Of a stretch of DNA of 64,000 nucleotides, positions 24,073 through 26,044 are shown in pieces. Every line of letters starts with the position of its first letter. Positions within the stretch are counted from its first letter, which is position 1. A program made the position numbers and the translations under genes. Location of the stretch: positions 1-64,000 of the forward strand of contig JALWOY010000081.1 in the NCBI GenBank assembly GCA_027083355.1, read 5' to 3'. This stretch comes from Phycisphaerales bacterium (GTDB lineage Bacteria > Planctomycetota > Phycisphaerae > Phycisphaerales > UBA1924). The notes below the pieces were generated by a model that ran no database searches, had not been told where the DNA came from, and worked only from the letters and a program-made list of their open reading frames with translations.

Positions 24073-24484
24073 ATCGAACCCGTGTGGTTGCGGTGTGACC
24101 TGCTTATCGGCGAACAGCACGGCCGGATCGACGGGAGTGTACGAGATCGCGGCTGGCAGAGCTGAGTTGCCGAGTGTAATACGAACATAAAAATGCCGTC
24201 TGCTCTTTACGCGAGCGATCGGATCGGTTCGAGTCCGGCAAACACCCTGACAAAGAGCAATTTTACAGGTCCGAAGAACAGGTTTTTTGCGATCCGGGGT
24301 CGAGAAACAACAGTTTTGGGGCGAAGTGGCCGAGGATGTGTTGCAGAGTGGGGCGAAGTAGGGCATAATCCCACAACTTTTCGTCGGGTGGTGAATGCAG
24401 GAGGCCTTCATTTCACGCGGCGATCGCGAAACCGGCGGAATTGGCCGAGGCAAGGCAGCCAGATGACCGCGCTGGAAACGACCC
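24073..24484. other. Intergenic region upstream of mraZ
   Basis: This 412-base gap is AT-richer than its surroundings in 24140-24320. It holds the start-side region of the divergent flavin reductase gene (minus), a GAACAGGTTTTTTGCGATCC T-tract near 24275-24293 that could be a terminator remnant, and the mraZ promoter with MraZ boxes at 24317-24369. GGTTCGAGTCC at 24226-24236 looks like a tRNA T-arm, but no cloverleaf can be built. Confidence 0.6.
24317..24369 (+). promoter_or_regulatory. mraZ promoter with MraZ boxes
   Basis: -35 TTGCAG (24341-24346), 17-base spacer, -10 CATAAT (24364-24369). TGGGG at 24317-24321 and TGGC at 24327-24330 are one 10-base-spaced pair. TGGGG at 24349-24353 and TAGGG at 24359-24363 are another, lying inside the -35/-10 spacer. 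MraZ of E. coli and others binds TGGGN repeats spaced by 10 bases, so autorepression is expected. Confidence 0.75.
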
Positions 24485-24937
24485 GTGCTGTTCACAGGAC
24501 AAGCCGAGATCACGATCGACGCCAAGCAGCGGCTCGCCGTGCCGTCGAAGTACCGCAATCGGCTGCCCGAGGGGGAGACGACGTGGTACTGCGTGCCGTG
24601 GCCGGAAGGGTCGATTCTGCGTCTGTACCCGGCGAGCGTGTACGAACCGCTGGCGTTGCGGCTGGACGATTCGCTGACGGCGGGGAGCGACGCGAGCAAG
24701 ATCGATCAGTCGTTCAGCTTCGTCGAACCGCTGGAGATGGACAAGACCGGGCGGGTCCGGCTGCTGAAGTGGCACCTGGACCTGGTCGGGATGCCGAGCG
24801 AGGTGATGGTGATCGGTGCGCGGAATCGGCTCGAAGTGCATGCCCGGGACGTCTGGCGGGCGAGCATGGTCGATCGGTTCCGCGAGATGGCGGCGCTGTA
24901 CGAGCGATCGGAGCGCCGGGGCGAGACGCAGGCATGA
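24485..24937 (+). CDS. mraZ: Transcriptional regulator MraZ
   Basis: This 150-aa DNA-binding protein normally heads the division and cell-wall cluster. It has two AbrB-like swapped-hairpin domains: MLFTGQAEITIDAKQRLAVPSKYRNRL and, later, VEPLEMDKTGRVRLLKWHLDLVG with VMVIGARNRLEVHARDVW. The GTG start at 24485 gives the standard N-terminus. Its own promoter carries TGGG-type MraZ boxes. No rsmH (mraW), ftsL or mur gene follows; instead about 430 bases of structured sequence run to a terminator at 25339-25371. The gene is thus an orphan of the dcw cluster, with autoregulation still intact. Confidence 0.93.
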   Translation: MLFTGQAEITIDAKQRLAVPSKYRNRLPEGETTWYCVPWPEGSILRLYPASVYEPLALRLDDSLTAGSDASKIDQSFSFVEPLEMDKTGRVRLLKWHLDLVGMPSEVMVIGARNRLEVHARDVWRASMVDRFREMAALYERSERRGETQA

Positions 24938-25371
24938 ACCCGGGTCGGCGAAAGGCCCGGGTCGAGATGAACACAACGCCTTTGTGGTGTCCGGACCATC
25001 CGGACGCCACGAGGCCGAGGCGAACCGCGGGTGTGCGAGCGCACGCCCGTGGGGCTTGAACGGGGCGGCTCGCTGCCCCGGGTCGATGTGACCGTCCGGC
25101 AGGGATCGCCGGGCGGGGAAGAAGGCCGGTGTGAACCGAGGAGTGCACACCGGCCGCGCCAGGGACGGCGCGGGCGAGGCAGGGACGCCGAGCCCGGACA
25201 ATCGCGAGCGTGTGCCCGGCCCGCGAGCGGCGGCCCGGGTGCATTGACGATGCGGCGTTTGCGTCGCGACAGAGCGTGACCGGCAGCGGGCGAACTCCCA
25301 CCATGACCTCCCACAGGTGCCCGATGCCATCCTCCCCACACCTGCCGGGCCCCACCCGGCGGGTGTTTTTT
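24938..25371 (+). ncRNA. Candidate structured RNA: serial hairpins downstream of mraZ
   Basis: After the mraZ stop come eight hairpins in a row. 24938-24962: ACCCGGG stem. 24984-25010: 12-bp stem with CCA loop. 25026-25051: 11-bp stem, GAGC loop. 25061-25080: CUCG loop. 25092-25116: 9-bp stem, AGGGATC loop. 25124-25155: perfect 10-bp stem, loop with GAGGAG. 25156-25171: AGGGAC loop. 25172-25195: outer 4-bp stem, tandem G.A, inner 3-bp stem, AGGGAC loop. A terminator follows at 25339-25371. Three loops are AGGGAC or AGGGAU, reminiscent of GGA motifs in CsrA-binding RNAs. I do not recognise RNase P, tmRNA, 6S or SRP motifs here. No convincing protein frame exists. It may be an mRNA 3' part, a processed RNA or an independent gene. 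Confidence 0.55.
25339..25371 (+). terminator. Strong Rho-independent terminator after mraZ unit
   Basis: An 11-bp stem CACCTGCCGGG/CCCGGCGGGTG (one T-G wobble) with CCCCA loop is followed by TTTTTTG. It closes the mraZ and structured-RNA unit. Confidence 0.9.
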
Positions 25372-25380
25372 GTCGGGAGA

Positions 25381-25928
25381 AGGAGAACACGCGATTTGAA
25401 ACACCGACCGGCAAGCTGCCGGTGATCCCCGACGGTGGTTTTCGGGTGTGGTGGGTGTGAAAAAATGGAGGGATGGAGATCGAGGAGGAGAGGGAGCCCC
25501 TCACCCCGGCCCTCTCCCCGCAAGCGGGGAGAGGGAGGGTGGAATCGGTGCGCTTTGGGCGGGCGGAGAATCCGACGCTTCGCATGCTCAGCGTCGGCGT
25601 CTGTTGGTTGAAGTGCATGGCAGGTTGGGTCGGGGCGCCGTGAAGGGTCGTTTGGTTTGGGGGGAGAAGGGAGCCCTCGCTTCCGCTCGGGCCTCTCTGG
25701 GGATGAGAGATTGAGAGATGGAGAAGAGAGAGACGGGCTGGAAGCCCATCCCACCGAGAGAAAGGAGATGAAGAAAGAGCCCCATGCCCCCGGCCCTCTC
25801 CCCGCAAGCGGGCGAGGGTGGAAATGATGACTGGAGACTCGGCTCGGAGAGCCGAGGTATCCGAAGCCAAGGTATCCGAAGCCAAGGTGCCCGGGGTCGT
25901 CGGATGGGGCGCGCGGGATCGGCGCATG
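25381..25928. repeat. Intergenic repeat island 3
   Basis: There is no gene here. It includes an ACCGGCAAGCTGCCGGT palindrome (about 25408-25424), family D in reverse orientation (25491-25544 and 25792-25821), a family G copy (25567-25600), family A in reverse (25673-25695), a family F palindrome GACGGGCTGGAAGCCCATC (25731-25749), and the triplicated GCCAAGGTATCCGAA unit (25853-25890). 25669-25754 is the inverse of 11568-11647. Confidence 0.8.
25673..25695 (-). repeat. Family A hairpin repeat, copy 3
   Basis: On the minus strand this reads GAGGCCCGAGCGGAAGCGAGGGC, identical to the consensus copy at 11621-11643. Confidence 0.85.
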
Positions 25929-25958: not shown

Positions 25959-26044
25959 TGCGGACGAGAGGAGTCGAACCTCCACGGGGTTTTACCCCCA
26001 CTAGGACCTGAACCTAGCGCGTCTGCCAATTCCGCCACGTCCGC
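25959..26044 (-). tRNA. tRNA-Leu (anticodon CAG)
   Basis: This 86-nt class II tRNA has acceptor GCGGACG paired with CGTCCGC, D-arm GGCGGAATTGGCAGACGC, anticodon arm CTAGG-TTCAGGT-CCTAG with CAG at its centre, a long variable arm (TGGGGGTAAAACCCCG) and T-arm GGAGGTTCGACTCCTC. The discriminator is A, and the CCA tail is not encoded. A TTGCCG-18-TAGCAT promoter lies upstream and a terminator downstream. Confidence 0.97.

Follow-up and report, generated by a model that had tools for sequence, protein, structure and literature searches.

A candidate CsrA-titrating RNA array in the 3′ region of mraZ in Phycisphaerae

In Phycisphaerae bacteria the cell-division regulator gene mraZ ends in a long, apparently untranslated region studded with hairpins of the exact shape bound by the global regulator CsrA, and on sequence evidence this region is probably an RNA sponge for CsrA (we put the probability at roughly 0.7). 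It coexists with the protein antagonist FliW, in a phylum listed among the groups that may use FliW (PMC4682653). The locus was examined in a window of 64,000 nucleotides (contig JALWOY010000081.1 of assembly GCA_027083355.1, forward strand), in which mraZ stops at 24937. A sequence-only reading had described at least eight consecutive hairpins between this stop and a strong terminator, several with GGA loops, and had likened them to the CsrB/RsmY-type RNAs; the observation was confirmed, and the interpretation was supported by relatives which that reading could not see. The parts of the locus are as follows.

24340 to 24374, + strand: MraZ-type operator (two G-rich repeats, GTGGGGC/GTAGGGC) overlapping the −10-like CATAAT of the putative mraZ promoter
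24485 to 24937, + strand: mraZ coding sequence (GTG start, 150 aa)
24938 to 24962, + strand: predicted hairpin 1 (9 bp)
24977 to 25022, + strand: predicted hairpin 2 (long stem GTGGTGTCCGGA/TCCGGACGCCAC)
25025 to 25052, + strand: predicted hairpin 3 (12 bp)
25054 to 25089, + strand: predicted hairpin 4 (GGGGCGGC/GCTGCCCC)
25092 to 25116, + strand: predicted CsrA-type hairpin A, CCGTCCGGC-AGGGATC-GCCGGGCGG, loop 25101–25107 (9-bp stem)
25124 to 25155, + strand: predicted hairpin with CGAGGA loop (off-consensus GGA loop)
25156 to 25171, + strand: predicted CsrA-type hairpin B, GCGCC-AGGGAC-GGCGC, perfect CANGGACG hexaloop 25161–25166 (5 bp)
25172 to 25195, + strand: predicted CsrA-type hairpin C, GGGC-GA-GGC-AGGGAC-GCC-GA-GCCC, loop 25181–25186 (3 bp, then tandem G.A, then 4 bp)
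25204 to 25262, + strand: predicted branched hairpin
25263 to 25280, + strand: predicted hairpin GTCGCG/CGTGAC, with CGACA..CGTGACCGGC conserved in the genus
25282 to 25337, + strand: conserved 3′ element, a GC stem with a large C-rich loop (CUCCCACCAUGACCUCCC), then CCUCCCC
25338 to 25372, + strand: predicted intrinsic terminator (25338–25366 plus T-run)

The mraZ gene was identified by its Pfam domain (MraZ, PF02381, E 4e-11), and 111 of 120 genomes of the same family have a relative. Downstream of it, positions 24938–25371 fold into about twelve consecutive hairpin domains, with a minimum free energy of −261 kcal/mol against −220 ± 6 for dinucleotide shuffles (z −6.6, 0/100 shuffles as good). 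All three ANGGA words of the region lie in hairpin loops, and the GGA of hairpins B and C are 20 nt apart, close to the 18–21 nt quoted for one CsrA dimer bridging two sites (PMC4894983). The fourth loop, which the sequence-only reading had counted as GAGGAG, lacks the A two bases before GGA and may not be a site. Neither the window array nor 33 related loci matched any Rfam family at gathering level, including CsrB, CsrC, RsmX/Y/Z and TwoAYGGAY, and relaxed E-values gave only sub-threshold hits that are probably due to chance. A BLASTN search of the whole region in 120 family genomes found no real homologues and missed even the two same-genus genomes, as the RNA diverges too fast for sequence search.

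If the region is bound by CsrA, relatives are predicted to keep the loop motif while the rest changes, and this was tested on mraZ with its flanks from 108 genomes of the family. Hairpins with an ANGGAN hexaloop number 171 in the 500 nt after the mraZ stop, against 12 in mraZ, 9 upstream, 3 further downstream and 1 on the opposite strand. The decisive control does not select for stems: of all 434 ANGGAN words after mraZ, 174 are closed by at least four pairs exactly at the hexaloop register, while moving the loop by one to four bases gives at most 13. The corresponding counts are 15/289 in the mraZ CDS, 12/187 upstream, 3/182 at 700–1400 nt downstream and 16/670 for [CGT]NGGAN words, and site density is 5.3/kb against 1.1 (CDS), 0.8, 0.4 and 0.15/kb (reverse strand). 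The sixth loop base is C or U in 151/174 and the closing pair is C-G in 125/174, giving the consensus CANGGAYG with 76 distinct 4-bp stems. Stems also covary: in 15 clusters of close relatives, double changes keep pairing 41 times and break it 12 times, against 7–19 and 18–30 when one strand is slid (reciprocal comparisons being counted twice), and the loop is kept in 81/91 comparisons. Site number is nevertheless low, with three ANGGA sites in the window, mostly 1–4 hairpins per locus in the family and at least two ANGGA-loop hairpins in 65/108 loci, whereas nine of the 108 loci have none detected.

In 400 kb from each of two relatives (G024 and G042), on both strands, the only cluster of three or more such hairpins within 400 nt is the mraZ 3′ stretch, with 6 sites (the first near the end of mraZ itself) and 4 sites, and in the 64-kb window the only + strand perfect hexaloop with at least four pairs is hairpin B. 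The register signal is present in other families of the order (29 vs at most 2, 15/24 loci), weaker in other orders of the class Phycisphaerae when restricted to the gap before rsmH (15 vs at most 2, 10/27 loci), and absent as a signal in other Planctomycetota classes (1/29 loci). As the sequence-only reading had noted for the window, rsmH does not follow mraZ; it follows in 0/103 loci of the family and 0/24 in other families of the order, but in 24/27 loci of other orders and 27/29 of other classes, which points to a split of the division cluster, probably at the base of the order. Genes downstream of mraZ are not conserved in the family, so the RNA belongs to mraZ and not to the next gene. 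A terminator is present in 79/108 family loci, with a median end +377 from the mraZ stop.

The presumed ligand is widespread in these genomes. csrA is present in 119/120 family genomes, so that csrA-less genomes could not serve as negative controls, and most carry a second copy. The main copy (CsrA1) sits between fliW and flagellin in 21/21 loci inspected; it has a C-terminal extension and, by our own residue count, keeps L4, R6, V42 and R44, which contact RNA, and N55, the FliW-contact residue (PMC13407953). A second, divergent csrA paralogue (locus L002:1495-1725, genome and contig G000:C177) has no fliW beside it and carries an insertion after GD (GDPKNPIG). In nearly all of the 21 loci the flagellin Shine-Dalgarno lies in a hairpin of type CAAUC-ACGGAG-GAUUG (L001:1053-1068 and the flagellin leaders of loci L211-L230), with variants in some, and most csrA leaders carry such hexaloops too. 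The classic CsrA targets in these genomes therefore carry the same site type as the mraZ array, which is the strongest indirect evidence that CsrA is the ligand.

Control by MraZ, which the sequence-only reading had suggested, also has some support from sequence. A 35-base element, GTTGCATTGTGGGGCAAAGTGGGGCATAATCCCAC, lies upstream of mraZ with at most 10 mismatches in 78/108 loci and in 0/105 control stretches, and the window copy has 4 mismatches; it resembles the MraZ operator, which probably consists of direct GTGGG repeats. Within the array itself no sigma70-like site was seen, and TTGACA is enriched in some relatives but has no matching −10. The 5′ part of the mraZ 3′ regions (e.g. loci L006, L009 and L012) is enriched in GAGAGA soon after the stop (49 vs 14 expected) and, in a subgroup, carries GGGATTGACAACCC. 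Short dispersed repeats of GCGAGTCGCGAGT type (L105:1149-1198; L279; L280) occur in many copies in the genome G098, one of them inside its mraZ 3′ region, and in several copies in the genome G061. In the window, two similar intergenic copies of CCGGCCCTCTCCCCGCAAGCGGG followed by GAG-rich sequence lie at 25501–25536 and 25788–25815, between the mraZ terminator and the tRNA gene at 25959–26044.

A second conserved element lies at the 3′ end. The 70 nt before the terminator are C-rich and contain CCACC in 51% of mraZ loci against 5% of 230 control terminators, and the terminator itself contains it in 39% against 0%. CCACC is mostly unpaired (0.72 against 0.35 overall), and in the window's genus the CUCCCACCA-GACCUCCC loop is among the most conserved parts. 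An intra-RNA partner for these CCACC/CUCCC loops was sought, but no enriched GGUGG was found.

Taken together, these data are best explained by transcription from the MraZ-boxed promoter through mraZ and a ~430-nt structured 3′ region to the intrinsic terminator. In this model, which is inferred without RNA-seq or binding data, the hairpins with C-ANGGAY-G hexaloops, the high-affinity CsrA site, bind CsrA dimers, either in the intact mRNA or as a processed sRNA, and titrate CsrA away from weaker targets such as the Shine-Dalgarno hairpin of flagellin and the csrA leader, working alongside FliW. MraZ, by controlling its own promoter, would thus tie a division-linked regulator to the Csr/flagellar circuit. 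The main weakness is the small number of sites, far below that of CsrB, so titration needs an abundant or stable RNA.

The main rival, less likely but not separable from the sponge by sequence, is that CsrA binds the array in cis and controls the stability, processing or translation of the mraZ mRNA itself. CsrA binding is expected from the same evidence under both models, and the array is always attached to mraZ; four family genomes over 90% complete (G029, G047, G061 and G071) have no detectable mraZ, and in the two that were checked (G047 and G061) DNA searches did not find the array, although the divergence of the RNA limits such searches. However, the sites lie mostly in the middle to 3′ part of the untranslated region and not at the mraZ ribosome site, only 9/108 loci have a hexaloop within 300 nt upstream of mraZ, and several sites per RNA plus a dedicated terminator fit titration better. 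It is improbable that another RNA-binding protein recognises the array or that its role is purely structural, with the CsrA match being convergent. The fold does contain hairpins without GGA and the C-rich 3′ element, and CsrA binding is here inferred without an assay, but the consensus is the published CsrA/RsmE hexaloop CANGGANG (PMC4894983), and the same shape covers the Shine-Dalgarno of flagellin, the classic CsrA target, next to csrA in the same genomes. Chance hairpins in a GC-rich intergenic sequence, or an unannotated small protein gene, are refuted: the region is GC-rich and its open frames are long by chance, but open-frame length is about equal to that of shuffles (0.84 vs 0.80), and the folding score, register specificity and strand specificity all argue against such a reading.

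The CsrB/CsrC and RsmX/Y/Z sRNAs of Gammaproteobacteria likewise have serial hairpins with A(N)GGA in hexaloops closed by C-G, an intrinsic terminator and a coexisting csrA, but the present RNA has no Rfam match, is encoded as the 3′ region of mraZ, has fewer sites and no promoter of its own seen by sequence inspection, and occurs in organisms carrying FliW. RsmU (sRX061) of Xanthomonas campestris is processed from an mRNA 3′ UTR, has several GGA motifs, and binds and sequesters RsmA (PMC7694677); its parent gene is predicted comEA, in Gammaproteobacteria, and no homology is expected. The flaA mRNA leader of Campylobacter jejuni, which works with FliW (PMC4894983), and the fimAICDHF leader of Salmonella also titrate CsrA, but these are 5′ leaders with few sites, whereas here a 3′ array is found on a regulator gene, separate from the flagellin mRNA. 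Similarity of the 3′ part to the alphaproteobacterial ar14 and Xanthomonas sX13 RNAs is weak, with scores far below gathering (22.5 vs 58.8 and 12.4 vs 50 bits). No earlier report combining CsrA with Planctomycetes or with mraZ was found in the open-access literature searched, judged from titles, abstracts and selected passages.

A 2015 survey proposed that BarA-UvrY systems transcribe CsrA-antagonist sRNAs throughout the Gammaproteobacteria but rarely or never elsewhere (PMC4682653), and a 2020 review of CsrA states that it 'remains to be determined' whether FliW and sRNAs act together in any species (PMC7652899). More tentatively, and somewhat less likely than not, Phycisphaerae may have an RNA antagonist of CsrA, encoded in the mraZ 3′ UTR and switched by MraZ, that works together with FliW on the same CsrA, with C-rich 3′ loops adding a second, base-pairing function. 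This would be the first such FliW-plus-RNA-sponge circuit outside Proteobacteria and a direct link between a division-cluster regulator and motility control. The locus also shows how fast-evolving RNAs that are invisible to Rfam can be found by the register of a loop motif rather than by sequence similarity. It gives a concrete, conserved candidate in which FliW and a probable RNA antagonist exist in the same genomes, making the question testable, and it offers a function for an mraZ detached from the division cluster.
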